Assembly (NCBI GenBank): GCA_012839215.1 | Contig: DUNV01000138.1 | Span: 1-50,773, forward strand | DNA length: 50,773 bases | From: Bacillota bacterium | GTDB lineage: Bacteria > Bacillota > Dethiobacteria > DTU022 > UBA8154 | Reading direction: 5' to 3' | Part shown: in pieces, positions 14,847-45,653 of the stretch | Numbering within the stretch: position 1 is the stretch's first letter | How the letters are laid out: each line of letters begins with the position of its first letter | Translations under genes and position numbers: made by a program | The notes under the pieces: generated by a model | Database searches by the model: none | Seen by the model: the letters and a program-made list of their open reading frames with translations, nothing else | What the model was told of the DNA's origin: nothing

Positions 14847-16031
14847 ATGTACGAAGATAGAGGAAATATCGGGGGGTTATTATTAAAAATGGGCAAAGAT
14901 TTATCGCATGAATTTAAAATAATTCTTCAGTTAGAGGGAAAAAGATCCCTTTCCGGGAATGATCTTTTTAATCTCTTGGAGAATATTATGGTTTCAGGAT
15001 CTATCAGTGGTGCGGCTGCAAGGATGGGTGCTTCCTATCGTTACTGTTGGGGGCTGCTGCGGGAAGCAGAAAAAACTTTGGGGCTGGCGCTAGTAGACAA
15101 GCAGGTGGGAGGAGTTGCTGGCGGCGGTACAACGCTTACTTTTCAGGGTAAGGAGCTGCTGGCCCAGTACAAGGCCTTTAAACAGAAAGCAGATAGCCAG
15201 TTGAAACATTTCCAGGCACGTGCCGGCAAAAATGCCGAGGTAACCGGTACACAACCCCCTACGCGGCATCTCCTGCTGGCCAGTACCATGGAGGCTGTGG
15301 AAACTGGCCTAATGGATTTGCTAGAGGAGGCTTTTTTGCATACCAGCGGTATACTCGTCAGGCATATTTCTGCTGGTAGCGGTCGTGCCCTGCAGATTGC
15401 CAGGGAAGGCCGTGTCGACATGGTGCTGACCCACGCCCCGGAACTGGAAAAGGCCTTTATGGATGAAGGTTGGGGAATCGAAATGTTCCCGATCATGACC
15501 AATGATTTTGTCATCGCCGGTTCCCTTGACGATCCTGCTGGTTTGGGCGGGCTTTCCAAGTCAGCCGGTGCTGCGGGGGTTTTTAGGAGGATTGCTGCTG
15601 CCGGCACGCCCTTTATTAGTCGCGGTGATAATTCTGGAACGCATATACGTGAACTGGAAATGTGGAGGCGGGCGGGGGTGACTCCCGCTGGGGACTGGTA
15701 TATTAAATCCTCGGATGTAGCAGGCAACCCGGGGGCCCTGCGTCTGGCCAGTGAAAGGCAGGGTTATACTTTTGTTGATCGGGCCTCTTTTCTACTGGCG
15801 GGGGAAAAGAACATGGGTATCTTTTCCCCCGCTGCCAGGGTAGGGGATCCGGACTGGAATCTGGAGAATGTTTTTGTTATCATCTTGGTCAACCCGGAGC
15901 GCGTTCCCTGGGTCAAACTGGCAGATGCCCGGCTTTTTTCCCAGTGGCTAAGGGGGAAAGAGGGGCAAAAGCTCATATCCTCCTTCGGCCGGGAGTCGAT
16001 CGGAAAGCCTTTGTTTACCGGGGTGTTGTAA
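14847..16031 (+). CDS. One-component regulator: ModE-like HTH fused to TupA/PBP-like oxyanion-binding domain
   Basis: N-terminal ModE/LysR-type HTH (GSISGAAARMGASYRYCWGLLREAEKTLGLALVDKQVGGVAGGGTTLTFQGKELL); C-terminal PBP domain with TupA-like SRGDNSGTHIRELEMWRRAG; no signal peptide. Confidence 0.85.
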   Translation: MYEDRGNIGGLLLKMGKDLSHEFKIILQLEGKRSLSGNDLFNLLENIMVSGSISGAAARMGASYRYCWGLLREAEKTLGLALVDKQVGGVAGGGTTLTFQGKELLAQYKAFKQKADSQLKHFQARAGKNAEVTGTQPPTRHLLLASTMEAVETGLMDLLEEAFLHTSGILVRHISAGSGRALQIAREGRVDMVLTHAPELEKAFMDEGWGIEMFPIMTNDFVIAGSLDDPAGLGGLSKSAGAAGVFRRIAAAGTPFISRGDNSGTHIRELEMWRRAGVTPAGDWYIKSSDVAGNPGALRLASERQGYTFVDRASFLLAGEKNMGIFSPAARVGDPDWNLENVFVIILVNPERVPWVKLADARLFSQWLRGKEGQKLISSFGRESIGKPLFTGVL

Positions 16032-16120
16032 TGCCTATTATTTCTCGATGATCTTTTATTTTTCAAACTTTGCAGGATTTGGGTTTGTTTAGTAGAATAA
16101 AATAGTAGTATGGTGAATTA

Positions 16121-16132
16121 TGGTTATAACCA
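16121..16132. promoter_or_regulatory. 12-bp perfect palindrome TGGTTATAACCA upstream of surface cluster
   Basis: Exact self-complementary sequence about 16 nt upstream of the first cluster ORF. Confidence 0.4.
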
Positions 16133-16147
16133 AATGGGAAGATAGGA

Positions 16148-19100
16148 GTGCCAATGTGGATGAAGGTAAACGAAAGAGAATCGGCCATGAGGTATTGGTC
16201 ATATTTTGCTTTGGCATTGCTTTTTATCATTACGATCGGTTTTCAAATGCCTAACGCTGTTCAAGCTGCAGGAGATGATATTACAATATCAGGCCCCGGA
16301 TTAAACAATCCCGGGGGTATAACCATTACCCAGAAGCAGCTCCAGGGGGAGGAACCCTTGTCACCGGAGCTAAAATTGCTGTACGGAAAAGAGTACCTGC
16401 AGCAATATGATGAATGGTACAGCACCATTAATTCATGGCCTACCAAAAGCTGGTTCCGGGGTGTGGGTGTGAAGCTTACCGAATTACTTGATCTCGCCGG
16501 GGGAATTAAACCACAGGCTACCCGGATTGTCTTTACGGCCAGGGATGGTTTTAAGGTGGATTTTACAATAGATGAGCTTTTAGGTGAACCCCGTTATCGT
16601 TTTCCCAACTTTATGGATACAGGCCTTCCAGGTCATTTTCCCGGCGATTCCTCATCAGCAGTACAGGTGGAAACAATTATCGCCCATAAAAGTTTTTCAA
16701 CACAGGACTATGCCGAAATTATTAAAGATACCTTCTTTAGCTCCTCTGATGCCAACCACCTTTTGTATGGGCAGCGGGCGGTGACCCAGCAAACTAGCCC
16801 CCGTTTTGCTAAATATACGAAATCAATAGAAGTGCTGATCGACGATCCGGTTTCCCAGTGGGAGAAGCCTACAGCTAGTATACCACCCGGGGAGGTGCCG
16901 GTTGGGGCCAAGGTGGAATTGCATGCCCCGGAAGATGATGAGGATAAGGTGCACTATACTTTGGATGGTAGCGATCCAACTATCCACAGCCCCATGTACA
17001 ACTGGGTTGCCAAGCGTTGGTGGCCATCCTGGGGGGAAGAGTTAAGCGAAATAAATTGCCCTATTGAAATATTGGAGGATACAACCATTAGGGCTTTTGT
17101 TACCGGCCCCGGTCGTAGGGATAGCGAGGTGGCCTCTTTTGCCTATACAGTTCCCTATGTGCCTGTTACAGGTATAAGTATCGATGGGGGTGATCTGAAC
17201 CTTTATGTAGGAGAAATTGCCTACCCCAAGGCTATTGTGCAGCCGGAAAACGCCACCGAGAAAGGAGTGATCTGGTCCACAGATGATGCAGCTATTGCTG
17301 TTGTAAGCGAAACGGGCCGGATTTCCGCGATATCCGAAGGCAAAACAACAATTACTGCTGCTGTGGTGGGGGGAAACTTTACTGCCAGCATTACCGTTAC
17401 TGTTGTTGCTACAACCGATCCCCCGAGATTGATTGCCGATACTACCAATAACGTGGTGGGCCATGCCATAGGGATCGTCTTCAAGGATGATGGCTTCTGG
17501 CGAAAGGCAATAACCGGGGTCAGCATCGACGGGAGACCACTGCGGGCTGATGAATATGTAATTCACGAAGGTAAAATTGCCTTTAAGGCTGGCCTTTTCA
17601 CCTCGGTAAAAAACTATATTGTTATAATAAGGGCGGCGGGTTATGGGGATGCCACTTTAACCCAACCAATTCGGGGAGACTCGGAATCAGGTTCTACCCT
17701 GAAAGAACCTCCAGGCTTGACGGCGGATAGTGGGGATCCCAGGGAGATTTACATAACCTACACGGACGGTGCAGCCTGGCAGGCAGCAATTACTGACGTT
17801 CTAGTTAATGGATCATCCGCTGCCGGCAGGTATCGCGTTGATGCCGGAAAAATTAGCATTGAATATACTTTGTTCGATACGGTTGGTGATTATACTGTTA
17901 CTATAGTAGCATCTGGTTACCAAAATGCTACTGTGACGCTAAAAATTAGTGCTTTTCTTATAATAACAGGAGATGGTGTGGCAAACCCTATGGAATATAC
18001 CCTTGCCCGGCTGGAGGGCATGCCCCAGCACCAGGAGGTATACAGCGTTATAAACACTTGGCCTACGAAGAGCTGGAGCGTGGGCAAGGGAGTTAGATTG
18101 GACTATTTGCTTGGCCCCGAGCAGGCAAACATGAGATCGGGGGCTACTATTGTCAATTTCTTTGCAAGGGATGGTTATAAAAGGACTTTAACGGTAAAGG
18201 AGTTGTTTGTTGATTGCCGCTATCGTTTTCCAGGTCTTATGGAGGGTGGCAGTGGCAGCGAAGGGCACCTGCCTGGTTCGGCCGAGGGCGCGATAGAAAC
18301 AGATACTATCCTGGGGTTGCAAAAGGCTGATGGTACCACAGATCCCTCAGCAATGAACATTGTAGAAACTCCAATGCTAATGCTGGGGCAGCGGGCTGTC
18401 ACTGAACAGACGGGCCCTTCACATGTAAAGAATGTAAGCAGGATAGAGGTGCTAACCGGCTATGTGCCCCAATGGGAGAGGCCTACAGCCTCCGTGCCCC
18501 CAGGGGAGGTGCCTATGGGGACCCAGGTGGAGCTTGAAAGCACTTATAACGATGATGATAAGGTCCATTACACCCTTGATGGCAGCAGCCCTACCTATGA
18601 CAGTTCCATGTACAATTGGCTGGCCAAGCGCTGGTGGGCACAACGTGGTGATGAAATCGTCCGGGAGATAAATCATCCTATAGAAATAAACAAAGATACC
18701 ACTATCAAGGCAATCACTATTGGCCCGGGCCGTGCGGACAGCGAAATTGCCGTTTTTGACTATACAGTTATCCGCGCCGCGGCGGGCAGGGTATTGCCCG
18801 ACAAGGATAATGTGATCAAATTTGGCGATAAAGTTCTCCTGGAAATACCTGCCGGGGCCTTGCCTGGAGGCAGGTCGGTAGAAGTTAAAATCGAAAGCAT
18901 TGAAAAACCTCCCCCTTTGCCGCCAGATCTTAGGTTGCTCGGAAATGTCTTCGAGTTCAGCGTGGATGGACGGAAAACCTTTACCTTTAACAAAAAAGTA
19001 ATGCTCCGGTTTACTATTGATGCCGAATCTGTTGGGAAGGACGGGGAATTAGCTGTCTATTACTACGATGAAGAGGAATGCCGCTGGGTGAAAATTGGCG

Positions 19101-20107
19101 GTACCGTGAAGGATAGTACCATATCCGTTGAAGTGGATCATTTCACAAAGTTTGCAGTCATGGTGGCCGGGGGGCCTGTTAGCAGCAAAATGATTGCGCC
19201 GGACAAGGGGGGCACGGTCGGCTTTGGCAAGGAGGTCCTCCTGGAGATACCGGCAGGCGCCCTGACGGGCAACAAAGCGGCAGAAGTAAAGATTACCCTA
19301 GTGGAAACACCCCCAGCTATTCCAGTGGGTTATAAACTATTAAGTGCTGTTTATGGGCTCAGCATTGATGGCAAAATAAGTTATAATTTTGCTAAAAAGG
19401 TGCAGGTCACACTTTGTTTTGATCCTGAAACCCTGGGGGAAAACGAGGTTCCAACCATCCATTATTATGATGAAAGGCAAGGCGGCTGGGTTGACGGAGG
19501 CGGTACTACCAAAGGAAATGTCATATCAGCCGGGCTTGATCACCCGGCTATGTTTGCTGTTTTAGCCACCGTTGTAAAAAAGGAACCCCAGCTTACGGAT
19601 ATTGCCGGCCACTGGGCCTTCCATGGTATCCAAAAGCTGGCGGCCTTGGGTGTGGTAAGCGGTTATCCCGATGGAAGTTTTAGGCCCGATAATGATATTA
19701 CCAGGGCAGAGTTTGTTACCTTGCTCACCGGGATTTTTCAACTTGAAAGCAAGCCAGGCGGGATTTTTGCCGATACAGAGTTACACTGGGCCAGGGATAG
19801 TATTGCTTCAGCAGTGTCAAGAGGTATTGCCAGCGGTTATGGGGCCGATATCTTTGGTCCGGACGATCCGCTCACCCGCGAACAGATGGCGGTGATGATT
19901 GTTAGGGCGGCCAAACTATTATCTTCGGGAGGAGATCCCCAATTTGCAGATAGTGGCAGCGTTTCCAGCTGGGCCGTCAATGCCCTCTTCACGGCGGCAA
20001 AAAATGGAATTATCAGTGGTTATCCTGATAACACCTTCCGGCCGCAGGGTCCCTCCACCCGGGCGGAGGCTGTGACAGTCATCGCCAGGGCGTTGCAAAA
20101 AATGTAG
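16148..20107 (+). CDS. SLH-anchored multidomain surface protein: 2x MoCo-fold-like/chitobiase-C modules, Big_2, 2x DUF1533 (Shr-HID-like), 2x ZU5-like, 3x SLH
   Basis: Signal peptide; modules at about 16274-17150 and 17957-18774; Big_2 at about 17160-17410; two DUF1533-like repeats (RKAITGVSIDGRPLRADEYVI...GYGDATL; QAAITDVLVNGSSAAGRYRV...GYQNATV); IPAGAL ZU5-like repeats; SLH motifs (ITRAEFVTLL, LTREQMAVMI, STRAEAVTVI). GTG start called; ATG at 16154/16160 possible. Confidence 0.85.
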   Translation: MPMWMKVNERESAMRYWSYFALALLFIITIGFQMPNAVQAAGDDITISGPGLNNPGGITITQKQLQGEEPLSPELKLLYGKEYLQQYDEWYSTINSWPTKSWFRGVGVKLTELLDLAGGIKPQATRIVFTARDGFKVDFTIDELLGEPRYRFPNFMDTGLPGHFPGDSSSAVQVETIIAHKSFSTQDYAEIIKDTFFSSSDANHLLYGQRAVTQQTSPRFAKYTKSIEVLIDDPVSQWEKPTASIPPGEVPVGAKVELHAPEDDEDKVHYTLDGSDPTIHSPMYNWVAKRWWPSWGEELSEINCPIEILEDTTIRAFVTGPGRRDSEVASFAYTVPYVPVTGISIDGGDLNLYVGEIAYPKAIVQPENATEKGVIWSTDDAAIAVVSETGRISAISEGKTTITAAVVGGNFTASITVTVVATTDPPRLIADTTNNVVGHAIGIVFKDDGFWRKAITGVSIDGRPLRADEYVIHEGKIAFKAGLFTSVKNYIVIIRAAGYGDATLTQPIRGDSESGSTLKEPPGLTADSGDPREIYITYTDGAAWQAAITDVLVNGSSAAGRYRVDAGKISIEYTLFDTVGDYTVTIVASGYQNATVTLKISAFLIITGDGVANPMEYTLARLEGMPQHQEVYSVINTWPTKSWSVGKGVRLDYLLGPEQANMRSGATIVNFFARDGYKRTLTVKELFVDCRYRFPGLMEGGSGSEGHLPGSAEGAIETDTILGLQKADGTTDPSAMNIVETPMLMLGQRAVTEQTGPSHVKNVSRIEVLTGYVPQWERPTASVPPGEVPMGTQVELESTYNDDDKVHYTLDGSSPTYDSSMYNWLAKRWWAQRGDEIVREINHPIEINKDTTIKAITIGPGRADSEIAVFDYTVIRAAAGRVLPDKDNVIKFGDKVLLEIPAGALPGGRSVEVKIESIEKPPPLPPDLRLLGNVFEFSVDGRKTFTFNKKVMLRFTIDAESVGKDGELAVYYYDEEECRWVKIGGTVKDSTISVEVDHFTKFAVMVAGGPVSSKMIAPDKGGTVGFGKEVLLEIPAGALTGNKAAEVKITLVETPPAIPVGYKLLSAVYGLSIDGKISYNFAKKVQVTLCFDPETLGENEVPTIHYYDERQGGWVDGGGTTKGNVISAGLDHPAMFAVLATVVKKEPQLTDIAGHWAFHGIQKLAALGVVSGYPDGSFRPDNDITRAEFVTLLTGIFQLESKPGGIFADTELHWARDSIASAVSRGIASGYGADIFGPDDPLTREQMAVMIVRAAKLLSSGGDPQFADSGSVSSWAVNALFTAAKNGIISGYPDNTFRPQGPSTRAEAVTVIARALQKM

Positions 20108-20118
20108 AGGGAAAATTT

Positions 20119-21858
20119 ATGTACAACGTTAGGCATAAAGCATATTCTAAAATCTTGTTGCCTACTTTTGGCGTTCTATTGCTGATCTGTTTAATGGGTG
20201 CGTGGACATGCCCGGTAGTACTAGGCGAAATGGGAAAGGCGGAAGAGCCCGGGCCAGTGTCTGAACCAGGGCCGGACCCTATGGGCCCCGTCCTGGAGAT
20301 TGTCGGGGATGGGGTGGAAAATGCCCTAAGTTTCACGCTTGCAGAGCTGGAGGCTATGCAGCAGTGTGAGCAGGTGTACAGCACTATAAATACCTGGCCC
20401 ACTAAGCGATGGTATATGGCCAGGGGTATTAAACTAAGGGATTTGCTGGAACTTGCCACGATCAAGGAAAGTGCCACACTCCTGAAATTTATCGGTAAGG
20501 ATGGCTATGGTACAAATCTCACGGTAAAGGAACTGTTGGAAAACAAACGCTACTTTTTCCCAGGTTTGAAAGAAAATCATCCTTATGATGGAAGTGTACC
20601 TGGATCCACTGAAGATGCGGTAGAAGTTGAGCCCCTTATCTCCCTTGTGAGCGCCGAGGACAGCAATGATCCGGCGGATATGGATGATAGAAATGGCCTG
20701 ATGCTGGTATTGGGGCAACGGGCAGTAACCGAACAGACTATGCTCCTGTACGTTTTTCACCTAAGGAGGATCGAGGTACTAACCAATGAGCTGGAAAAAT
20801 GGGATGCCCCCCGGGTAAACGTTCCCGATGGGGCTGTGCTTCCCCCAGGGGTTGGTCTAACATTGCAGAACAAATATTCTGATGCTGATAAAATCCATTA
20901 CACGATAGATGGCAGCGATCCAACAGTGGATAGCCCCATGTTTAACTGGAGCGCCAAACGTTGGTGGGAGCAGAGGGAGGATGTCGATAGCATCAATATC
21001 CCCCTTGAAATTATTAAGGAGATGATTAGTGATAGCTATGAGGGTGAGAGCATAGTAGTTCTTAAGTTGCGTACTATCGGGCCCGGAAGGGAAGATAGCG
21101 AAATAGCAACCTACACCTTCAGAATAGATCCCGACGCTGAGGATCCGACTGAGCTGGCTAGCGGCCCACCCACTGGCATCTTCCTCGATCAGGACAGGCT
21201 AGAACTCCAGGTGGGGGGCACTTTTCAGCTTGATGCCAATATCAAGCCATTTAACACGGGGGACAGAGGCATAATCTGGCGTTCCAGCGATACCAGTGTG
21301 GCCACGGTGGATACAAGGGGGCTAGTGACGGTTGTTGGCCAGGGCAGCGCTATGATTACTGCCGAAACTGTGGAGGGCGGCTTTACAGCTGTTTGCGTAA
21401 TCAATGGCCCTGTGGGGGGAGAAGGTGGCACCGGGGTAACGGCTGATGGGGAAAATAGCCAACCAAAGGAAGGCGATTCCCACAGGCACCAAACACCATT
21501 AGAAGAGGAATCATTTTCTCCCACAGGGTTGCCGGCAGAGCCGGATATGAAGGAATCAGTGGCTGGTTCAATATTCCATAAGGATGAGGGCTGGCTGCCG
21601 GCAAAAGAAGGAAATTGGTGCCACCTTTCAAGGCCGGAGGATTTGCCCGATGACCCTATTCGTGAGAACCCGGTTGCCGAACATTTCCAGAGCACCTCCC
21701 CCCAGCCACAAGTATTTGGGTTATTGATTGATAATGTTATACCTCTGCCCTTGCAGGAGCAACAGAAAGATTTGATCCCCTATGTTGCCACCATATTCTT
21801 GTTTCTCTTTTTTTGCGGCGTCAGTAAAGGATATGCAGAATACAACAGGGAGCATTGA
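20119..21858 (+). CDS. Exported protein with one MoCo-fold/chitobiase-C module, Big_2 domain, low-complexity linker and C-terminal TM anchor
   Basis: Signal-like N-terminus; LEIVGDGVENALSFTLAELEAM...GQRAVTEQT...DKIHYTIDGSDPTVDSPMFNWSAKRWW; C-terminal hydrophobic LIPYVATIFLFLFFCGVSKGYAEYNREH. Confidence 0.82.
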   Translation: MYNVRHKAYSKILLPTFGVLLLICLMGAWTCPVVLGEMGKAEEPGPVSEPGPDPMGPVLEIVGDGVENALSFTLAELEAMQQCEQVYSTINTWPTKRWYMARGIKLRDLLELATIKESATLLKFIGKDGYGTNLTVKELLENKRYFFPGLKENHPYDGSVPGSTEDAVEVEPLISLVSAEDSNDPADMDDRNGLMLVLGQRAVTEQTMLLYVFHLRRIEVLTNELEKWDAPRVNVPDGAVLPPGVGLTLQNKYSDADKIHYTIDGSDPTVDSPMFNWSAKRWWEQREDVDSINIPLEIIKEMISDSYEGESIVVLKLRTIGPGREDSEIATYTFRIDPDAEDPTELASGPPTGIFLDQDRLELQVGGTFQLDANIKPFNTGDRGIIWRSSDTSVATVDTRGLVTVVGQGSAMITAETVEGGFTAVCVINGPVGGEGGTGVTADGENSQPKEGDSHRHQTPLEEESFSPTGLPAEPDMKESVAGSIFHKDEGWLPAKEGNWCHLSRPEDLPDDPIRENPVAEHFQSTSPQPQVFGLLIDNVIPLPLQEQQKDLIPYVATIFLFLFFCGVSKGYAEYNREH

Positions 21859-21867
21859 AGCTGAACG

Positions 21868-22500
21868 ATGGAATATATGTTAACGTCTCTAAAAGAGGCC
21901 ATGCACGTAATCTCATCCTGTTTATTGATACCGACCGTTGTCATATTACTGCTATTTTTAGCCTGGACAGTGATCGAGTTGGGAGGTTTGGTGGTAGAAT
22001 TTTTTTATGAGCGCCGAGGGGAAAAACCCCACCTTCCTAAGCTGATCAATTTTTTTCAGGGAAAAAATGCAGAGGAGATTTCGGGGGAAATCGAACACAG
22101 CAGCCTGTTGCGCCGCCAGAAGAAGGCCCTAGGTGTATTGATCGATCACAGCAAATTGCCGCCTGCCTCCCTGCGAGCCTTGGCCCGCCGCCTGCTGGCT
22201 GGGGAGGAGATGCATTACCTCCGTATAACCAATAGGACTGATCTAGTGGTGCGACTTGGGCCCATGTTCGGGCTAATGGGTACGCTGATTCCACTTGGGC
22301 CGGGCATGATCGCACTCGGGCAGGGGAACACGAAGCTGCTGGCTGATTCCCTGCTCATTGCCTTCGATACGACGATTTCCGGGCTGGCCGTTGCCGGCGT
22401 TGCCTTTGCCATTTCCCGATTGAGAAAAAGGTGGTATGAAGACCACCTCAGCGTCCTTGAGATGCTGCTGGAGGGTTTATTGGAGGTATTCGATCGATGA
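21868..22500 (+). CDS. MotA/TolQ/ExbB-family proton channel-like protein
   Basis: VRLGPMFGLMGTLIPLGPGMIALGQGNTKLLADSLLIAFDTTISGLAVAGVAFAISRLRKRWYEDHL matches the TolQ/ExbB core; predicted TM helices. Confidence 0.9.
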   Translation: MEYMLTSLKEAMHVISSCLLIPTVVILLLFLAWTVIELGGLVVEFFYERRGEKPHLPKLINFFQGKNAEEISGEIEHSSLLRRQKKALGVLIDHSKLPPASLRALARRLLAGEEMHYLRITNRTDLVVRLGPMFGLMGTLIPLGPGMIALGQGNTKLLADSLLIAFDTTISGLAVAGVAFAISRLRKRWYEDHLSVLEMLLEGLLEVFDR

Positions 22501-22829
22501 ACGGGGGGCTGAGGGAAAAAGGGGGCAGGACATCGAGATTATGGGGTGATGTGGATCCCCTTGAAGGTACAACAAATATCGTAGATGCCATGCTGGTATT
22601 TGCCTGCGGGTTGATGCTTGCCCTGGCTGTTTATTGGAATATTGATCTAGGCCCTATAGGCGAGCGAATTGATTTGATCCGAGGACAAGAAATAACGGAT
22701 ACCCCTCTGTTGCGGGAGGGTTTGGTCGAAACGGAAGGCACAGGGGAACTTTATGAAAGGCTAGGTACAGTCTACAAGGATCCACGGACGGGGCAGTTGT
22801 TTATGTTGACAGAGGATGGTGGGAAATAA
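22497..22829 (+). CDS. DUF2149-family membrane protein (ExbD-like topology)
   Basis: WGDVDPLEGTTNIVDAMLVFACGLMLALAVYW: single TM with N-terminal-side Asp, overlaps the ExbB-like gene. Confidence 0.8.
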   Translation: MNGGLREKGGRTSRLWGDVDPLEGTTNIVDAMLVFACGLMLALAVYWNIDLGPIGERIDLIRGQEITDTPLLREGLVETEGTGELYERLGTVYKDPRTGQLFMLTEDGGK

Positions 22830-24264
22830 TGCCTACTATTCTACTGCCCTACTGCCCTATTATCAAACAAAATTATTATCGGGAGCCTATAAGCGGGGGG
22901 TGTATTGCTTGCCTGGCGGTAAAAAAAGTAAAAAACCATCTGCAATATTATTAGCTACATTGTTGTTCTTTTTGATTTTTGGCACCCTTGTTCCTGCAGT
23001 GCCCCTGGCTGCTGGAACAGATATGCTGGAAATACTCGGGGATGGGGTGCAGAATCCAATAACGCTGACCCGGGAACAGCTTGAGGGTATGGAGCAGCAT
23101 CAGGAGGTGTACAGTTCGATCAATACATGGCCTACCAAGAAGTGGTATGCGGGCGAGGGCGTCAGGCTCTGGGACTTGCTTCAACATGCCGGAATAAAAA
23201 AGGAAGCCAAATTGATCAAGTTTACCTCCGCTGATAGCTACACGGTGACACTTACAGTGAAGGAATTATTCCAGGACAAGCGTTATCGTTTCCCACATTT
23301 CATGGAAAACGCTGATGCTGATGGGCATCTTCCGGGTCTTGCTACGGGGGCTGTCCCGGTTGAACCGATTATTGCCCTGCTTAGCGTAGAAGGCAGCGAT
23401 GATCCCGGGTATATGAACAAGTTAAACACCTTGCTCTTGATGCTGGGGCAACGGGCAGTTACCGAACAGGTGGGAAACTTGTTTGTCAAGTATCTATGTA
23501 AAATCGAGGTGTCTACTGCTGAACCGGAAAAATGGGACGAGCCTCAGGCAAATCCCGGAAGTGGTTCTGTGCCCAAGGGAACGATGGTGACACTAAGCAA
23601 TCTTCACTGCGATGATGATAAAATTTACTATACTTTGGACGGCAGCGTTCCCGACATGAACAGTTCCATGTACAATTGGATTGCCAGCCGCTGGTGGCCT
23701 TCACGGGCGGATATTCTGGGGAAAATTAATCGGCCTATTGGCCCTATCAACGGGGATACCATCATCAAGGCAATAACCATTGGCCCCGGCAAAAAGGACA
23801 GCAATGTTGTTACCTTTAGCTATCATGCCGCTGCAAAGCCGGGGGAAAGCCAGAAACCGGCAGGTGATGGTGAATTGCCCACGCAACCGATAATGAAAGT
23901 TATTAAGCTGATCATTGATCGGAAGGAGGCCAGCGTAAATGGCGAACCCTATGAACTTGAAGCTGCACCCTATCTTAACCAGGAGGTTGGCCGCGTGCTG
24001 GTGCCGTTGAGATTTGTCAGCGAGACTTTGGGTGCTACTGTGGAGTGGAACCCGGAAACCCAACAGATTACCATCGCCGGCGAAGGGAGGGAGGTTATAT
24101 TAACTTTGGGTTCCAGGGAAGCATCAGTTAACGGATTGGCCGTGGCCCTGGATTGTATACCAAGATTGCGGGTTGGCCGTACTCTTGTTCCACTACGGTT
24201 TGTTAGTGAAAACATGGGGGCAAAAGTGGACTATCGGGATGGAATGATCATCATTGCCAAATGA
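22816..24264 (+). CDS. Exported protein: MoCo-fold/chitobiase-C module + copper amine oxidase N-terminal-like stalk repeats
   Basis: Signal peptide; module at about 23026-23826; C-terminal repeats KEASVNGEPYELEAAPYLNQEVGRVLVPLRFVSETLGATVEW and REASVNGLAVALDCIPRLRVGRTLVPLRFVSENMGAKVDY. Confidence 0.85.
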   Translation: MVGNNAYYSTALLPYYQTKLLSGAYKRGVYCLPGGKKSKKPSAILLATLLFFLIFGTLVPAVPLAAGTDMLEILGDGVQNPITLTREQLEGMEQHQEVYSSINTWPTKKWYAGEGVRLWDLLQHAGIKKEAKLIKFTSADSYTVTLTVKELFQDKRYRFPHFMENADADGHLPGLATGAVPVEPIIALLSVEGSDDPGYMNKLNTLLLMLGQRAVTEQVGNLFVKYLCKIEVSTAEPEKWDEPQANPGSGSVPKGTMVTLSNLHCDDDKIYYTLDGSVPDMNSSMYNWIASRWWPSRADILGKINRPIGPINGDTIIKAITIGPGKKDSNVVTFSYHAAAKPGESQKPAGDGELPTQPIMKVIKLIIDRKEASVNGEPYELEAAPYLNQEVGRVLVPLRFVSETLGATVEWNPETQQITIAGEGREVILTLGSREASVNGLAVALDCIPRLRVGRTLVPLRFVSENMGAKVDYRDGMIIIAK

Positions 24265-24484
24265 TGGAGGCTTGCGGAGTAAGCTGTAAATTGCATTATG
24301 TGAGTTCCCAGTAGCCTTCCACCGACTGTAAAGGGGGTGGGACCTTGGTACTAGGCTTTCCGGATACGGTGTGGCATCCTGTTCCGGTGTGGCTGGCTTA
24401 CAGTAAACTCTGTTTTTGGCATAGACCCGTTATGTTCCTTGAAACAGTCCGCGAACACTTGTTACCAATTTAACGAAAAGGGGA

Positions 24485-27400
24485 GTGTTTTTGATCATGT
24501 TTTTTCCGCAAGATGTTAGGAAAAAATCGCTGGAGCAAAGAGAAAGATCGCTGCTGGCTATCATGTTGGCGGTGCTTTGTGCCATGTTTGTCTTCATGGC
24601 AGTTGTACCACAATCGGTTATTGCCGAAACCCAAATTGTAGATGTTCTTTATGATGGTACGATGGTACTGGCCCCTAGTGAGACTTTTGAGGTGACTGCC
24701 TACAATTCAGGGAAAACATACATTGTGGGCAAGAATACGCCGCTGGGGGCATTGCAGGCGGCCGCTGATGCCAATGGCTTCACCTATGCAGTCACCGATA
24801 AAAATTATGATAAGTCAGGAGCATTGCTTCTAGATGATGTGGGAAGCTACAGCTATAAACCTGGTTCCTGGTATGCCTGTGTCAATGATATTCTCAAGGA
24901 TGGATTCAACAATTCTGAAGGAGCCCTCAACCTGATCGAATTAATGGATGGCGATCGGGTCGAATTCTATTATTCTACCGTCAAAGGCGATCTCAATGCA
25001 ATGAAGGCCGCAGCAACGGCGGCGGTGAAGGTCAAGGTAGCAACTGGAGAAAGCGGGGGTGATCCTGGCAATACTGTAGCACTGGAAATTGCCGGGGATG
25101 GTATAAACAATCCCCTAAAGTTGACGAAAGCCGATCTTGAGGAAATGAAATTATCCCGCTATTTGTATAGCACAATTAATACCTGGCCGACAAAGAGTTG
25201 GTATGTGGCCGAAGGGGTAAAACTAAGTGAGCTGCTTGCAAAGGCGGGGATAAAGGATGAAGCCAAGCTTCTAAAGTTTACAAGCAAAGATGGTTTCAAA
25301 GCAAACTTTACTGTTCAGGAACTTTTGAAAGAAGAGCGCTACCTCTTCCCGCGTTTCAGGGAAAATGAGGAGTATTCAGGGCATATTCCTGGTTCCCCGG
25401 ATGGGGCGGAAAAGGTGGAGGCCATTCTGGCATTTAGAAGTTTCGATAGCGATGATTTTGCCGATATGGGCGATAAAAATGCATTGCATTTAACTTTTGG
25501 GCAGCGGGCACAGACTGAACAGACGAATGCAGTGTTTGCCAAATACGTTACCAAGGTAGAAGTACTTACAAGCGATCCTGGTCAGTGGGATGCCCCAAAG
25601 GCCACACCGGCACCCGGGGAAGTCGTTGCCGGTACCCTTGTGGAGCTGAGTTCTTCCTTTAATGATACAGATAAAGTGCATTATACCCTTGATGGCAGTG
25701 AACCTACGGTGAATAGCCCTATGTATAATTGGGTTGCCAGCCGCTGGTCAAATCGATCGGATTACAAAGAGATTAATTGTCCGATTGATATCAAAAAGGA
25801 TACCACGATCAAGGCCGTTGTAATCGGCCCTGGCAAAAGAAACAGTGATGTTGTGGAATTTAAGTATACGGTTGCCGAGGGTTCAGCAGTGTTTGGTATA
25901 AGCGGCGATGTTTCGGCCGATTATTCACTTGGAAGATTGCAGGCCTTAGGGAAAACAACAGGGGAATATAGGTATACTAGTGGGGAAAAGTTAATCACCG
26001 AACAATGTACAGGCGTTTTGTTAGCTGATGTGCTGGCCAGTGAGGGCATCACCGATCCAGCAGCAAAAGTTACTATACTGACGACCGATGGATACCTGCA
26101 TGACAGCTATGAAGTAACCTTGAAAGCGGTTAGGGATGGCAACTATCTTGTAACGTATCAGGTTAACAATGAATCATTTGAAGATATAAGCAAGGATGGC
26201 AAGACTACTTCCCAAATCAGAATCTATCGCAATCATGATGATGGATCCGGTTGGTTGAATCGGCTGACTATGATTTCAGGTGTTAGTGTTGCCGGTTCAG
26301 CTGTTTCCCCAGGGGACTGGACGCTTCAGCTAGTAGGTGCAAGGAATGAGGCTGTTACCAAGGATTATTTCGAACAAGGCTTGGCCTGCCGCCCTACCCA
26401 TAGGGTTACATGGACTGATGAAGACGGCAATGAATGGGGCGGGGTGCCACTCTGGTTACTGGTGGGTATGGTCGATGATGATCCTGATCCAAATCCCACT
26501 CACTATACCTTTAGTGATGATCTTGCTGCCCAAGGTTATAGTATTAAAATAATTGCCGGTGATGGTTGGGATACATCTTTGGAGAGTGCCGATATTGCAC
26601 ACAGTGATGGTTATATTGTGGCAAACACATTAAATGGCAAGCCCCTTCCGGAAAAAACCCCGGGAGGCAAGGATTGCTGGCCACTACATTTGAAGGGCGA
26701 AAAAATTCATAGTGGTCAACAGGTCGGCAACATTGAACGTATTGAACTAATTGGTTTGCCCAAAAAACCTGAAGGATGGACCCTGGAAATGATTGGTGAG
26801 GTGGGTGATATTATTACCCAGGATGAATTTGAGGAAGGGTTAGCCTGTGTATCTAGCCATAAGGCGCAATGGACCGATAATGAAGACAATGTCTGGTCAG
26901 GTGTGCCCCTCTGGGTGCTTCTTGGTGCGATAGATGATGCTGAGACTAAGAGCCATTGGACCTTTAATGATAATGTTGCTGAAACAGGCTACACGGTAAA
27001 AGTGACTGCCAAGGACGGTTTTTCCAAGACTTTTAACAGCGTTGATGTTGCTCGCAACAACAACTTTATTATAGCTAGTAAGATCAACGGTGCACCGTTG
27101 GCTGATAAAAAATCAAAGCCACTACGCCTTGTGGGTGCCGGTGTGGCCAAAGGGGATAGTTCCCTTAGCGGTAGTGCTGTGGGCAATATCGTCAGGATTG
27201 AAATACCCGAGCTGCAGACACCACCCGCCGGGAAGGGCAGTTGGAACTTGATCCTCAAAGGTAGGATCAGCGACGTTCTTTCGCAGGCCGAATTTGAGGA
27301 GGCCTTGTCCTGTCATAAAAAAGAATGGACTGATGGTGAAGGAAAAGTCTGGTCAGGTGTACCCCTGCGGCTTTTGGCCGGTTGGGTTGATGATCGCCAG

Positions 27401-29062
27401 CCGCATAAATATGATCACGATCAGGCTTTGGCTGGTTATAAGATCTTTGTTAAAGCCGCTGATGGTTATAGCAAGGATCTTGACAGTAAGGATATAGCAA
27501 TGGCTAATGATAGTGACTATATTATTGCTGATAAGTGTGATGGCCAGCCGCTCACAGGCAACTCATGGCCGCTGCGCCTTGTGGGCGCCGGCGTAGCCAA
27601 AGCTGATGGTTCTCTCGGGGGGACGAGTGTTGGAAACCTTGCAGAGATTGAGCTTAAGGATTTTGGTGTTCTCCCATCCCTGCCAGGGGTTCGGATCGTC
27701 AAGTATGCCGAGGACAATAAAACCATCCTCAGTGAAAAAACGGTTGATTATAAATGGATGGAGGAAAATCTTCCAGTAATTGGCGATGGGAAGACAATAT
27801 ATAGATACGAAGGTATTACTAATAACCCTGATAATATCTGGGGTAAAGACGAAACCTATCCGGGTGGTTTCAAAATTGAAGATGCGGTGATGGGGACCCG
27901 TGTCAGGGATCTTTGTGATCTAGTTGGTGGCATGGGCGCCGGTACAGAAATAGTATTTGTTGCTAAGGATGGCTGGGAGAACAGGTTTCCCTACTCATCT
28001 ATATATACCGATCCCATAGTGCAGGCGCATCAGGGCGATGCGGTGCTGGCCTGGTTTGCAAACGGTAACTATGTACCAGAATATCGGGATGGCATGCGGC
28101 TGTTTTTTATGCCTGAAGATTGTGTTTACAGCCAATGGGATATGCACGAGTCCCTTCCGGAAAAGTATTGGCATTTCAAGGAAAGTGACGGAATTCAGTA
28201 TCCATCATGTGCTGGTCTGTCGCCAAAATATGTAACTGAAATTAGGGTTTACTCCTTACCCCAGGGCGATTGGGTGTTGGAACTTGATGGAAAGGCCATT
28301 GGTGGGCTGGAATATGATGTCAGCAAAACTTATTTTGAACAGGGGCTGGCCTGTACATTCGGGGCTGAACACAAGGCAAGTTATACAGATTCCCAAGGGC
28401 GCGTCTGGGAAGGAATGCCCCTGTGGTTTTTAGCCGGGTTTGTTGACGATGAGGATTTACACTCCAGGGAATCATTTGATGAGGAAAAGGCAAGGGCTGG
28501 ATATCAGGTGGTAATCACAGCAGCTGATGGCCATACAGTAACCATCGATAGTAAGAATATCATCCGCAACAGTGACTATATTATTGCCAATACGCTTGAC
28601 GGCACGGTTATCCCCGACGATCACAGTGACTGGCCGCTGCGCCTTGTAGGAAATGCTGTCACTGGAAAACAATCAATTTCACGGATTGTCCGCATTGAGT
28701 TGGTAGGATCGGGAGAAAGACCGGTTTATGACGTTACCCCGAAAACCGATATCGCCTATACTATCGGAAAAACTGCTGATGGCATTAGCACCATGACAGT
28801 GAAGAGCGGCGTTAGTGGCATGAAATATTTTGCTGCCAATGTAACACCGGTGGTTGCCCATGCCGGGCCGGAAACTGCCGTTTTTACCCATTTAAGAAAT
28901 GGTGTTCAGCTGGCGATTAGTGCTGTCAAAGCAGATTTTGATCAGGCAGGCGTTGACTTGGCCCAGGCTGGTTTTAATGTGCAACCCGGTGATGTGATCA
29001 AGGTTTACCTGGTCGACGACTTAAATAACCTGCCTGATCATAGCCCAATAGTTCTACAGTAA
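24485..29062 (+). CDS. Giant exported multidomain protein: DUF4430, MoCo-fold/chitobiase-C module, several further MoCo-fold-like repeats, C-terminal shared domain
   Basis: Signal peptide; DUF4430-like DVLYDGTMVL...GSWYACVNDI...GDRVEFYYS; module from about 25082; repeats at about 26315-26755, 26774-27210, 27236-27654, 27685-28257, 28265-28707 with GLAC/ALSC...W.GVPLW.L.G.VDD; C-terminal domain 28721-29059. Confidence 0.85.
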   Translation: MFLIMFFPQDVRKKSLEQRERSLLAIMLAVLCAMFVFMAVVPQSVIAETQIVDVLYDGTMVLAPSETFEVTAYNSGKTYIVGKNTPLGALQAAADANGFTYAVTDKNYDKSGALLLDDVGSYSYKPGSWYACVNDILKDGFNNSEGALNLIELMDGDRVEFYYSTVKGDLNAMKAAATAAVKVKVATGESGGDPGNTVALEIAGDGINNPLKLTKADLEEMKLSRYLYSTINTWPTKSWYVAEGVKLSELLAKAGIKDEAKLLKFTSKDGFKANFTVQELLKEERYLFPRFRENEEYSGHIPGSPDGAEKVEAILAFRSFDSDDFADMGDKNALHLTFGQRAQTEQTNAVFAKYVTKVEVLTSDPGQWDAPKATPAPGEVVAGTLVELSSSFNDTDKVHYTLDGSEPTVNSPMYNWVASRWSNRSDYKEINCPIDIKKDTTIKAVVIGPGKRNSDVVEFKYTVAEGSAVFGISGDVSADYSLGRLQALGKTTGEYRYTSGEKLITEQCTGVLLADVLASEGITDPAAKVTILTTDGYLHDSYEVTLKAVRDGNYLVTYQVNNESFEDISKDGKTTSQIRIYRNHDDGSGWLNRLTMISGVSVAGSAVSPGDWTLQLVGARNEAVTKDYFEQGLACRPTHRVTWTDEDGNEWGGVPLWLLVGMVDDDPDPNPTHYTFSDDLAAQGYSIKIIAGDGWDTSLESADIAHSDGYIVANTLNGKPLPEKTPGGKDCWPLHLKGEKIHSGQQVGNIERIELIGLPKKPEGWTLEMIGEVGDIITQDEFEEGLACVSSHKAQWTDNEDNVWSGVPLWVLLGAIDDAETKSHWTFNDNVAETGYTVKVTAKDGFSKTFNSVDVARNNNFIIASKINGAPLADKKSKPLRLVGAGVAKGDSSLSGSAVGNIVRIEIPELQTPPAGKGSWNLILKGRISDVLSQAEFEEALSCHKKEWTDGEGKVWSGVPLRLLAGWVDDRQPHKYDHDQALAGYKIFVKAADGYSKDLDSKDIAMANDSDYIIADKCDGQPLTGNSWPLRLVGAGVAKADGSLGGTSVGNLAEIELKDFGVLPSLPGVRIVKYAEDNKTILSEKTVDYKWMEENLPVIGDGKTIYRYEGITNNPDNIWGKDETYPGGFKIEDAVMGTRVRDLCDLVGGMGAGTEIVFVAKDGWENRFPYSSIYTDPIVQAHQGDAVLAWFANGNYVPEYRDGMRLFFMPEDCVYSQWDMHESLPEKYWHFKESDGIQYPSCAGLSPKYVTEIRVYSLPQGDWVLELDGKAIGGLEYDVSKTYFEQGLACTFGAEHKASYTDSQGRVWEGMPLWFLAGFVDDEDLHSRESFDEEKARAGYQVVITAADGHTVTIDSKNIIRNSDYIIANTLDGTVIPDDHSDWPLRLVGNAVTGKQSISRIVRIELVGSGERPVYDVTPKTDIAYTIGKTADGISTMTVKSGVSGMKYFAANVTPVVAHAGPETAVFTHLRNGVQLAISAVKADFDQAGVDLAQAGFNVQPGDVIKVYLVDDLNNLPDHSPIVLQ

Positions 29063-29192
29063 AGCATTAATGGGCAAGATTGTTAATGGAGGAAAAGGGG
29101 TGGGGAAAAAAGGATCTTTCTCCTCCCCTTTCACCCTTCATAAATTTAAGTTGCGTATAAAAGCCAGAGGGGAAAGCCGGGGAGCACTGCTA

Positions 29193-29762
29193 ATGCAGTA
29201 TCATAACCTGCACAGGCTATTCAAGTGTATAGTAAATTATGTTCTTCTGCTTGTCCTTTTGGCCTCAATTCCTTGCTGCTGCGGGTGCAGACCAATAGAG
29301 GAAACTACGGCGGGCACGCTTGCTATTGAAGGAAATGCGGTAAAGGGCAGGATCTGCTTTGCGCTGGATGAGCTCAAAGCTATGGAAGAGGGCTTTATAG
29401 AATCAGACTATTTTGCCCTAAATTCCTATGGCACAAGTCAGTATATCCATTTTTGTGGAATTGCTATGGGGTACCTCTTGCAGGAAGAGGTGGCCTTGAA
29501 GGAACATGCCTCTAAGGTGACTTTTACTGCCGATGATGGCTATACGGTGGAATATATGCTGGAAGACGTATTGCGGGAAGATTACATTGATGAACAAAAC
29601 CCCGATGTAAGGCACAAGATGATCCTCGCCTGGGAGGAGGACGGGCGGGAATATGATCCTAAAAAGGGCAACCCTTTTCGCCTGGTTGTCGGCCAAAGGG
29701 AGCCTGGAGATGTGAATAAACCTTATTGGGTATGCTACGTTAAGACCATACGTATTGATTAA
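29193..29762 (+). CDS. Putative lipoprotein with a MoCo-fold-like domain
   Basis: ORF called from 29070; ATG at 29193 gives a lipoprotein-like signal (LLVLLASIPCCCGC) then GTLAIEGNAVKGRICFALDELKAM...VTFTADDGYTVEYMLEDVL...NPFRLVVGQREPGDVNKPYWVCYVKTIRI. Confidence 0.7.
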   Translation: MQYHNLHRLFKCIVNYVLLLVLLASIPCCCGCRPIEETTAGTLAIEGNAVKGRICFALDELKAMEEGFIESDYFALNSYGTSQYIHFCGIAMGYLLQEEVALKEHASKVTFTADDGYTVEYMLEDVLREDYIDEQNPDVRHKMILAWEEDGREYDPKKGNPFRLVVGQREPGDVNKPYWVCYVKTIRID

Positions 29763-29819
29763 GATTGTCGGTGGATTTAATAATTGCTGTTCTATAAGGT
29801 GTAGAAGGAGTACTTTTCT

Positions 29820-31388
29820 ATGATGAAACCTGGATCAAGGTCCTTTGGCAGGAACATGCTGCCGGGTAGGCGTATCCTTTGCCTGGCAGTGTTGTTGGTA
29901 GTTATTTCCTGCATGTTGTTCTGGTCGCCGATTACAGCCGCAGAACTTTTGTCTCCGCAGCAAATAATTCTTACCTGGGTTGCTGATCCTGCCACTACGC
30001 AGGCAGTAACCTGGCTAATGCCTCCAGATCCTGCGGCTGCAATCCAGTATCTTTCGGCTAGTGAATTTTGCGCTGATTTTAATGCTGCCCTGCAATCGGA
30101 GGCCCAGGGGGTTGCTTTTGGTGGAGGGGAGACCATTTATCGTTATACGGTGAACCTTACCGATCTGACCCCGGATACCGAATATGTCTATCGGGTGGGA
30201 AGGGAAGGGGCCTGGAGCAAACCGGCAAGATTTATCACTGCAGCAGAAACAGAGGATTTTTCCTTCATGTATATGGGCGACGTACAGGCCGGCTATGAAG
30301 AATGGGGCGAGCTATTGGATTCAGCCTACAAAACCCATCCCGACATAAAATTTTCCCTTCTTGGCGGTGACCTGACAGATAAGGGAAACGACTTGGCAGA
30401 ATGGGGGGAATTCATTAATGCGGCGACGGGGCTGTTCTCACGCATTCCCATGATGCCCGCCAAAGGCAACCATGATGGGGAACTGTTTGCGGAATTTTTT
30501 TCCTTACCGGATAATGGCCCCCGGGGGGTAAGCGAAACTTTTTATTCCTTTGATTACGGGAATGCCCATTTTGTGGTTTTGGACACCAGCAATATCGTTA
30601 CTGAAAATGTTAAACAATGGTTGGCGGAAGACCTACAGGGTACGTACAAGAAGTGGAAATTTGCTGTTTTCCATAAACCCGCCTATCCGGTTGTCCATGA
30701 TAACAAGGGAATTGATGTGGCGATCCGTGAACACTGGGTGCCCATCCTGGAAGAAAACAAAGTAGATATGGTCTTTGTCGGACACCAGCATGTCTATATG
30801 CGCACCCATCCCCTTTGCCAGGAGACGGTAAAAACCGATTCTTACGGGATTGTCTACGTGATGGGCAACGCGGGTTCCAAGTATTATGCCAAGGGTGGGG
30901 TTTTCCCTTATAAGGCCGTTGAGGAGGAAGGAAACAATTATCAGGTGATTGAGCTTGTTGGCGATGTGTTGACTATGAAATCGTGGAAGGCAAACGGGGA
31001 GTTAATTGATTCTTATACGATCGATAAAACCCCGCAAGGACCGCCGGAAAGGCCGCGGTACAGTATTATCCCCAAGGAAGATCCTGCTTATAGTATAGGA
31101 TCTACGGCTGATGGTATTCAAACCATGCTTGTAAATGGGCAGCAAACCGGGTTGAAATATTTTACAGTTTCTATAGAGCCGCTGGTGTCGGCTAATGGTA
31201 TGGCTACAGCGGTTTTTACCCATCTAAGGGATGGTGTCCAGATAGGAATTAACGCTGCAGTGGCCGATTATGATGTGGTGGAAGCTGTGCAGGCCGGTTT
31301 TAATATCAAGGGTGGTGATATTGTTAAGGCGTATATCGTTGATGATTTGAGCAGCTCCATAAATTTTAATCCGAGACTTCTGCAGTAA
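29820..31388 (+). CDS. Purple-acid-phosphatase-like metallophosphoesterase with C-terminal domain shared with the preceding giant protein
   Basis: FN3-like PAP N-domain; metallophosphatase motifs GDVQAG, GGDLTD, GNHD, GHQHVY; C-terminal domain 31053-31385. Confidence 0.88.
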   Translation: MMKPGSRSFGRNMLPGRRILCLAVLLVVISCMLFWSPITAAELLSPQQIILTWVADPATTQAVTWLMPPDPAAAIQYLSASEFCADFNAALQSEAQGVAFGGGETIYRYTVNLTDLTPDTEYVYRVGREGAWSKPARFITAAETEDFSFMYMGDVQAGYEEWGELLDSAYKTHPDIKFSLLGGDLTDKGNDLAEWGEFINAATGLFSRIPMMPAKGNHDGELFAEFFSLPDNGPRGVSETFYSFDYGNAHFVVLDTSNIVTENVKQWLAEDLQGTYKKWKFAVFHKPAYPVVHDNKGIDVAIREHWVPILEENKVDMVFVGHQHVYMRTHPLCQETVKTDSYGIVYVMGNAGSKYYAKGGVFPYKAVEEEGNNYQVIELVGDVLTMKSWKANGELIDSYTIDKTPQGPPERPRYSIIPKEDPAYSIGSTADGIQTMLVNGQQTGLKYFTVSIEPLVSANGMATAVFTHLRDGVQIGINAAVADYDVVEAVQAGFNIKGGDIVKAYIVDDLSSSINFNPRLLQ

Positions 31389-31430
31389 TTGTTATTGTTC
31401 ATATTTTATGAGTAAAGTGGGGGGAAGATT

Positions 31431-32825
31431 ATGTTCAAGAAAACGTTGTCGATATTGATGGCAACTATGTTAATCGTCCTGCTGGCATCAACTGCGTCAT
31501 TTGCTGCTGGCAGCGGCGGGGGGGCTGGAGGAGTTGCAGCAGCCCCGGCAGAGACACCAGTTAGCCTTAACCTGGGTCCTGTCACAGCTAATCCGGGAAA
31601 CAGTGTCAATCTTTCTGGTGCGGCGAATGCCAACACCTGGGTTTCTGTTAAGGTTTTGGATAGCGCCGGGCAAATTGTATTTTTTGATGCTGTTAAATCC
31701 AAAGCTGACGGACAGTATGAATTTTCTTTTAAGGTTCCTTCCGTGGAACCCGGGGTTCTGACTGTTGTGGCCGGCTACGGCAGCAATGTGGCAAGCGCAA
31801 ATTTAACTGTAACTAGGGCAACATCTAGCGGTGGTGGTCCTGGTAGTGGCGTCGTGGAACCTCCCGCGGCAAAGCCTGCCGAAAGCACCACCGGTGCAGC
31901 CGACGTCAAACCTGATGCCGGTGGCAAAATCAGCTTGGGTGATAAGGCGAAAATTGATATTCCTGCCGGTGCCTTAAAAGGGACAGAACAGGTTAAGATC
32001 GAGATTAAGGAGGTCGCTGGCCCACCGCCTGTCGCCGAAAACACACGGATCATAAGTACTGTTTATGAATTTACTATTGGTGAGGAGACAAGCTATAGTT
32101 TTAGCAAACCAGTTACCCTTACTTTCGCTTTCGATCCGGAAATTCTTACTCCTGGGGAGATTCCCTCCGTCCATTATTATGAGGAGAACACAGGTGTTTG
32201 GGTAGAGCTGGGGGGAACAGTATCCGGCGACATTATTTCTGTAGCTGTGGAGCATTTTACCAAATTTGTTGTTCTTGCTGTGGAAAAGAAAGCCGATTCT
32301 GGCCCTGTCCTTAAGGATATTGCCATGCATTGGGCAAGGGATAACATTAAAGAGCTTATTGCAAAGGGAGCTATTGCCGGTTATGAGGACCAAACCTTTA
32401 GGCCTGACAAGGACATTACCCGGGCTGAGTTTGCCACGGTGCTGGTCAAGGCTCTGCAATTGGAGGCCAAAAAAGCTAAAACTTTCGTTGATACAGCCTC
32501 CCATTGGGCCAGGGAGGATATTACCACTGCCAACGCTCATGGCATTGTTGCCGGTTATAGCGATGAAAAGTTTGGCCCGGATGATAAAATTACCCGTGAG
32601 CAGATGGCTGTCATGATCGTTAAATCTACGAACCTGTCTACTGATGGGCAAGCACCGTCAGCCGATTTTTCCGACAGCGCCAAAATTTCAGCATGGGCCG
32701 GGGAGGCAGTTGCCGCTGCCGCCAGGGCTGGAATAATCAAGGGCTATTCCGATGGCAGTTTCCGGCCACAGGGCCAGGCCACCCGGGCTGAAGCTGCTAC
32801 TGTAATCGTTAATATCTTTAAATAG
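31431..32825 (+). CDS. SLH-domain surface protein with ZU5-like domain
   Basis: Signal peptide; IDIPAGALKGTEQVKIEIKE...VHYYEENTGVWVELGGTVSGDIISVAVEHFTKFVVLA; three SLH repeats. Confidence 0.9.
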   Translation: MFKKTLSILMATMLIVLLASTASFAAGSGGGAGGVAAAPAETPVSLNLGPVTANPGNSVNLSGAANANTWVSVKVLDSAGQIVFFDAVKSKADGQYEFSFKVPSVEPGVLTVVAGYGSNVASANLTVTRATSSGGGPGSGVVEPPAAKPAESTTGAADVKPDAGGKISLGDKAKIDIPAGALKGTEQVKIEIKEVAGPPPVAENTRIISTVYEFTIGEETSYSFSKPVTLTFAFDPEILTPGEIPSVHYYEENTGVWVELGGTVSGDIISVAVEHFTKFVVLAVEKKADSGPVLKDIAMHWARDNIKELIAKGAIAGYEDQTFRPDKDITRAEFATVLVKALQLEAKKAKTFVDTASHWAREDITTANAHGIVAGYSDEKFGPDDKITREQMAVMIVKSTNLSTDGQAPSADFSDSAKISAWAGEAVAAAARAGIIKGYSDGSFRPQGQATRAEAATVIVNIFK

Positions 32826-33751: not shown

Positions 33752-33863
33752 GCTTCCAAGCGGGGCAGACTGTGAATCGCTCGGTTTCGCCCCTCCCCGT
33801 TAGTGCCAAAATTGGTTGTTTATTGGAATCTTTGGTTACAGAAAGGCGGTATGTTGTAAGGCG

Positions 33864-45577: not shown

Positions 45578-45593
45578 ACTAGGGATAGGTTAA

Positions 45594-45648: not shown

Positions 45649-45653
45649 ATACA

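Follow-up and report, generated by a model that had tools for sequence, protein, structure and literature searches.

A conserved train of exported MoCo-fold proteins around an ExbB/DUF2149 pair in Dethiobacteria: a possible surface scavenger of molybdenum/tungsten cofactor

The 50,773-nucleotide stretch analysed here, called the window throughout (contig DUNV01000138.1 of assembly GCA_012839215.1, a Bacillota bacterium of the Dethiobacteria), carries a train of genes for surface and other exported proteins arranged around an adjacent pair of ExbB-like and DUF2149 genes. We read this train and its relatives in many anaerobic bacteria as an energised, HmuUV-related surface system under molybdenum/tungsten (Mo/W) cofactor regulation that scavenges tungsto- or molybdopterin, or a pterin/Mo/W complex, and we give this reading a probability of roughly 0.5. 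Its parts differ in firmness. The clade is very probably linked to the Mo/W cofactor and not to heme, given the riboswitch RF01055 at related loci, the genes for aldehyde:ferredoxin oxidoreductase (AOR), mod/tup and moa/moe that neighbour them, and the sulfite-oxidase/PruR fold of the modules; that the system serves acquisition is probable, and for a pterin-type ligand the odds are about even.

Ten open reading frames (ORFs), all on the forward strand, make up the train, and every one was found where an earlier reading made from the letters alone (the sequence-only reading) had placed it, with the tight spacing and the single 220-nucleotide exception it described; its domain assignments likewise agree with the Pfam/NCBIfam matches. 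The first gene (14847-16031) encodes a fusion of a ModE DNA-binding domain (TIGR00637, E 6e-19) with a TupA-type tungstate-binding domain (NF041772, E 8e-42), and from it onwards the successive gaps are +116, +11, +9, -4, -14, +220, +7, +57 and +42 nucleotides. Next comes an SLH-anchored surface protein (16148-20107), in which the domain matches are SLH, two chitobiase-C/Fn3-assoc (CHB_HEX/Fn3_assoc), Big_2 and two Shr-like HID domains, together with two modules of molybdenum-cofactor (MoCo) fold (16271-16891 and 17948-18505); its annotated GTG start at 16148 is doubtful, since an AGGAG at 16144 suits the ATG at 16154 better, and its signal peptide begins at ATG 16187. It is followed by an exported protein (20119-21858) with a MoCo-fold module (20287-20835; modelled with AlphaFold2, AF2), Big_2 and a C-terminal transmembrane tail, by the pair itself, a HmuU-like proton-channel subunit of the ExbB/MotA kind (21868-22500; PF01618, E 1e-8) and a HmuV-like DUF2149 protein (22497-22829; PF09919, E 3.5e-8), and by an exported protein (22816-24264) in which Pfam finds a MoCo-fold module (23017-23568), chitobiase-C and Cu_amine_oxidN1. 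Beyond the long gap lie a giant exported protein (24485-29062; PF00174, E 3e-26) with one module of the INTWPTK type (25073-25615) and four of a Cys/His type (26312-26761, 26774-27214, 27233-27667 and 28262-28714), a small MoCo-fold lipoprotein (29070-29762; PF00174), an exported purple-acid-phosphatase-like metallophosphoesterase (29820-31388; PF16656/PF00149), which is found again in related trains, and a further SLH-anchored surface protein (31431-32825; PF00395, E 1e-47). The gap itself (24265-24484) holds no Rfam element, folds no better than shuffled sequences (z +1.26) and is not conserved, and scans for promoters and terminators gave about the same as shuffles.

That the train is a single functional unit, as the sequence-only reading supposed, is borne out by the order and co-conservation of its relatives. 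Within the class, 9 of 98 genomes encode a DUF2149 protein (the window's own assembly, 2.06 Mb in 156 contigs and 97% complete, a single one), with an ExbB-like gene adjoining in every locus read, and within the same genus, family and order a 20119-like protein precedes it and module proteins mostly follow. Relatives repeat the same order, a C-tail-anchored module protein, then ExbB, DUF2149 and a further module protein, so that the arrangement, judged by gene order, is far beyond chance. A scan of named genomes with an ExbB alignment gave 534 relatives, of which the best 80 were retrieved (largely Bacillota, besides some Actinomycetota and a single archaeon; loci are numbered L and genomes of relatives G). 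MoCo-fold proteins stand within 9 kb of the pair and on its strand in 53 of 72 non-redundant loci; five of the rest have CobN-like proteins, and in 14 neither was detected, several of them on very short contigs. Missing co-conservation of pair and module proteins was what the sequence-only reading had itself named as telling against it, and the idea has survived that comparison.

The CobN-type loci form a sister group. In the ExbB tree, which has a midpoint root only and few CobN-type members, the five CobN-type pairs are split from all others by a 100/100 branch, and CobN was found neither in the window's train nor in the 53 MoCo-type loci. Where the class has CobN-type loci, an exported CobN-like protein comes next after the pair, and two of the three scanned have a cobalamin riboswitch upstream; this suggests that anaerobic bacteria also have the motor in a B12/cobalt version. 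These riboswitches (L021:8953-9136 and L022:11275-11452, both on the minus strand) lie directly 5' of the ExbB-DUF2149-CobN-like genes, and L021 also has a DUF2162 gene. One further pair, on a Bacteroidales-labelled contig (L026), is nested in Bacillota near L027, and the contig is probably mis-binned.

Degenerate MoCo-fold modules at the surface had been proposed from the letters alone, and PF00174, AF2 and Foldseek all support them. We found 60 modules of the INTWPTK type and 22 of the Cys/His type; Oxidored_molyb (PF00174) scores above its cut-off in the 22816, 24485 and 29070 proteins and slightly below it in the 20119 protein. The AF2 model of the 20119 INTWPTK module reached a predicted local distance difference test score (pLDDT) of 93 and that of a Cys/His module 82, the latter being the one good model among five. 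Foldseek matched the first to sulfite dehydrogenase (2c9x, E 9e-7) and PruR (7kom, E 1e-5) and the second best to PruR (7kom, E 7e-6), both types sharing the sulfite-oxidase fold (E 9e-7 to 2e-5). The INTWPTK sequence profile gave no significant match in the PDB, so the fold of these modules is taken from AF2 with Foldseek and from Pfam. In the alignment they are missing the Mo-ligating Cys, and they conserve Arg, Lys and Gln. A Cys and a His never vary among the 22 copies of the type seen in the giant protein, which implies a functional site there; these modules align to sulfite oxidase by sequence over their C-terminal half only, so that equivalence of their Cys to the Mo ligand is unproven. 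No twin-Arg motif was seen by eye in the N-termini of the module proteins, whose signals are Sec-like, and they are therefore probably exported empty. PruR is a periplasmic pterin sensor without the Mo-ligating Cys that binds reduced pterins (PMC13259868), and the modelled modules may bind pterins in a similar way.

The motor-like pair is equally recognisable, its two adjacent genes both scoring above the Pfam cut-offs (35.2 bits against 22.9 for MotA_ExbB, PF01618, in the 21868 protein; 34.1 against 27.1 for DUF2149, PF09919, in the 22497 protein), as the sequence-only reading had it. The ExbB-like profile (A2) matches MotA weakly (E 6e-5). DUF2149 has a single, ExbD-like transmembrane helix with an Asp in the motif N-[IL]-x-D-x-ML-V; this Asp30 is invariant in 10 sequences and presumably equivalent to Asp25 of ExbD. 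By analogy, the pair would couple the proton gradient to force. At 48 of 58 loci the gene directly 5' of exbB encodes an exported protein with a hydrophobic C-terminal segment and no internal one, a pattern shared by 54 of 450 other ORFs at a threshold set after a first inspection of the tails, which makes the p-value of this contrast optimistic. The protein encoded before exbB has a short, basic tail, in many cases with an R-[IV]-x-[RK]-Y-type motif at its end. We propose this C-tail-anchored protein, 20119 in the window, as the likely force acceptor of the motor. At L054, L080 and L099 the pair is preceded by C-tail-anchored proteins of about 820 residues, of which the sole one tested, that of L054, has Listeria-Bacteroides repeats by Pfam; neither MoaC, MoaA nor AOR was detected in the three genomes, so that the ligand may differ in this subgroup.

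Regulation is one of the ties between the clade and Mo/W. The Rfam model RF01055 (Moco/tungsten riboswitch) matches at gathering score in L012, L039, L027, L033 (twice), L034 (twice), L041, L035, L038, L103, L048 and L060, and also matches in L019, at least 12 related loci in all, its sites lying 5' of MoCo-type trains or between train genes. Thirteen matches in about 0.58 Mb scanned compare with about 0.4 expected from the class-wide density (146 matches in about 206 Mb), a roughly 30-fold excess over genomic density; these counts are those of Rfam, and our own RNA model R1, built from these loci, was kept out of the evidence. In L012, L048, L060 and L103 the riboswitch lies one to several genes from the pair, and most precede a MoCo-fold gene. 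Alignment of four RNAs to the family model shows the P3 hairpin in L012 but not in L034 (both copies) or L041, and no sequence besides L012 in an alignment of 13 has a P3 insert; RNAs without P3 correlate with tungsten cofactor (Regulski 2008, PMC2408646). AOR, mod/tup and moa/moe genes adjoin the trains of relatives; in L034, genes resembling ModABC lie 2-3 kb upstream. Riboswitch, neighbours and module fold thus all agree with the Mo/W connection drawn earlier for the window.

Importers accompany the trains of many relatives. In gut Clostridia a FecCD permease, an ATPase and a Peripla_BP_2 lipoprotein lie directly 5' of the partner gene (19 loci), and in Thermovorax (the isolate T. subterraneus, L039) and the Dethiobacter relatives there is an energy-coupling-factor (ECF) set of PF09819 S component, CbiQ and double ATPase (six loci). 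The S component is often fused, unusually, to a C-terminal MoCo-fold domain (L014:7815-8894, L016:6278-7360, L039:17129-18211 and L041:18316-19452), of the same type as the 29070 lipoprotein; in profile searches lipoprotein and fused domain match sulfite dehydrogenase (2ca3, E 2e-11). The nearest PDB chains to the substrate-binding protein of the FecCD importer are structural-genomics entries; the nearest named protein is HI_1472 (3psa, E 9e-16), which we take to be the molybdate/tungstate-binding MolA, well ahead of BtuF (2e-4) and HutB (3e-3). Within the window's 50 kb, the part of that genome searched for them, there is neither an ECF nor a FecCD importer. Of the capture machine imagined in the sequence-only reading, the Mo/W side stands, and its importers are found in relatives and not in the window.

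Seen together, these parts allow the following course of events. Other anaerobes would release tungsto- or molybdopterin, either as the cofactor or as products of its breakdown, and arrays of sulfite-oxidase/PruR-fold modules, on SLH-anchored and on free exported proteins, would bind the pterin ligand, nucleotide forms of which the surface metallophosphoesterase may trim. The proton gradient, harnessed by the HmuUV-like ExbB/DUF2149 pair, would then drive movement of the C-tail-anchored 20119 protein, which would strip the ligand from the surface modules and pass it to the 29070 lipoprotein, and from there it could go to an ECF-type importer or, in gut Clostridia, to one of the FecCD type. The boldest form of this, a proton-driven surface scavenger of the intact W/Mo pterin cofactor, the first in bacteria, with some gut Clostridia that have tungsten enzymes as cofactor auxotrophs fed by other microbes, is tentative and to our minds doubtful.

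The same riboswitches and neighbourhoods would fit a system for the uptake of molybdate/tungstate oxyanions, thiometalates or a Mo/W metallophore complex, in which the modules are general anion binders; the closeness of the importer's binding protein to HI_1472 and the Arg, Lys and Gln of the INTWPTK modules speak for it. We still think it unlikely, since ModABC, TupABC or MOT1 are already present in the genomes, a small diffusible anion hardly needs a giant energised apparatus, and the modules have a pterin-cofactor fold. A role other than uptake, in which the train forms a surface enzyme, a sensor in the manner of PruR-DcpA or a remodelling complex, its modules binding Moco/pterin for catalysis or signalling and its motor remodelling the envelope, seems quite improbable: PruR is indeed a pterin sensor (PMC13259868) and Moco-using enzymes are also under riboswitch control (PMC2408646), but many trains include importers, an ECF S component is near in six loci and fused in several, and the signals are Sec-like and not Tat.

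Acquisition of heme, a corrinoid or another tetrapyrrole, in the manner of HmuYRSTUV, is disfavoured and very improbable. The pair is HmuUV-like, the sister clade has CobN-like proteins and cobalamin riboswitches, and the 16148 protein has Shr-like HID domains; yet cobalamin riboswitch and CobN occur only across the 100/100 branch, Mo/W riboswitches take their place in the window's clade with no CobN near, and HID is also a generic surface domain. A heme or corrinoid ligand, the tetrapyrrole option of the sequence-only reading, was accordingly rejected for the window's clade on regulation and the ExbB tree.

Several observations weigh against the scavenging of pterin cofactor. RF01055 finds no match in the genome of the window, whose Mo/W link therefore rests on the ModE-TupA protein and on the neighbours described below, and this genome encodes MoaA (three copies), MoaC, MoaE and MoeA (four copies), so that its host makes its own cofactor and salvage would be a supplement. 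A DUF2149 profile run against the PDB found no ExbD. Whole Moco is reported not to fit the pocket of PruR (PMC13259868), and the likeness to PruR therefore supports binding of a pterin and not of the whole cofactor. Lastly, in one order the link between a missing MoaC and the pair, taken over 79 genomes that have AOR, is 2/4 against 5/75, and it is not significant without G109, the chosen centre and one of the two.

Searches for MoaA, MoaC, MoaE and MoeA found no match in eight genomes that carry a train of the MoCo or a related type, and seven of these genomes have AOR; G109 and G115, the latter having met the 90% completeness filter, show the same combination. MoaE went undetected in most genomes, some of which do have MoaA and MoaC, so that nothing follows from its absence, and since moaA, moaC and moeA can form one cluster a single missing contig could explain the gap in a metagenome-assembled genome. 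With such gaps possible and the order-level comparison dependent on G109, cofactor salvage by a few gut genomes with tungsten enzymes and no detected synthesis genes is only hinted at. Moco auxotrophy as a general rule was rejected, since MoaC is present in 27 of the 40 genomes that have the system and the order-level contingency is weak. In a Mogibacterium genome (L136; G103:C86:14000-33999) the system shares an island with an AOR operon, LysR, a ThiF-like gene and moaC-moaA-MOSC-moeA-moeA, and L137/L138 (G109:C27) have the same tungsten island without the cofactor-synthesis genes.

In the window's genome the adjacent ModE-TupA protein is a plausible regulator and, to judge by its domains, probably a Mo/W-responsive one acting on the train. 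A perfect 12-bp palindrome, TGGTTATAACCA (16121-16132), spotted post hoc between its gene and the first train gene, might be considered a candidate operator; a near-match, GGTTATAAC, precedes the 20119 homologue in L018. No classical ModE box was found with up to three mismatches allowed, nor any Rfam riboswitch in the window at E<=1. Downstream of the train, and not counted in it, is a MOT1-family molybdate transporter (33816-35006, forward strand; PF16983, E 4e-53), and ORFs at 44702-50439 were read by eye as ModABC, MobA and MoeA, the last backed by PF03453. A DUF364 protein (putative heavy-metal chelation; 43860-44612) lies directly upstream of the ModABC-like genes. The train is directly followed by an APH-like kinase (32910-33632), whose 54% identical homologue (L025:1140-1895) is on the same contig as the G070 train. 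Elsewhere in the window are a bacterial protein with two SET-domain matches (37149-37931) and a similar-looking pair (38056-38745 and 40772-41599) with, by eye, an N-terminal helix-turn-helix and a C-terminal Uma2-like nuclease-type region.

Among the closest known systems is HmuUV of the hmuYRSTUV heme-uptake system of Bacteroidota (order and annotation from PMC10434189), where adjacent ExbB-like and DUF2149 genes also stand by a large exported cofactor-handling protein, HmuS being a heme de-chelatase (PMC12583661). The window's train differs in having MoCo-fold modules in place of CobN/HmuS or a TonB-dependent receptor, in its clade's regulation by Mo/W and not by iron or cobalamin, and in its S-layer-type surface. 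With ExbB-ExbD-TonB and TolQ-TolR-TolA it shares a channel, a one-helix Asp-bearing subunit and a membrane-anchored exported partner, but this partner is anchored by its C-terminus, the opposite end, and matches no TonB family; Pfam finds neither TonB nor a TonB-dependent outer-membrane receptor in the train, the part of the genome searched for them. PruR is likewise a stand-alone exported sulfite-oxidase-fold domain, whereas the modules here are multi-copy on giant surface proteins, in part of the Cys/His type, with larger insertions and no DcpA neighbour. Sulfite oxidase and YedY (PF00174) share the fold and part of the sequence, yet INTWPTK modules have no Mo-ligating Cys, are exported in a Sec-like way and have neither catalytic partner domain nor heme. 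The importers of relatives are of the YkoEDC-like ECF and MolBCA-like FecCD kinds, though absent from the window, and differ from the former in the MoCo-fold domain at the C-terminus of the S component.

In the literature searched, to which subscription papers mostly did not belong, neither a bacterial uptake system for molybdenum or tungsten cofactor nor DUF2149 in such a role is described; Caenorhabditis elegans imports dietary molybdenum/tungsten cofactor (PMC9793310). If our interpretation is correct, cofactor sharing among anaerobes would become directly testable, and ExbB/DUF2149 pairs would gain a job in cells for which no outer membrane is known, the one motor acting for two classes of cofactor (CobN/cobalamin and MoCo-fold/tungsten). 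It may also explain two tungsten-type RNAs of Syntrophomonas wolfei that lie upstream of 'putative sulphite oxidase' genes and were noted as possible exceptions (Regulski 2008, PMC2408646).

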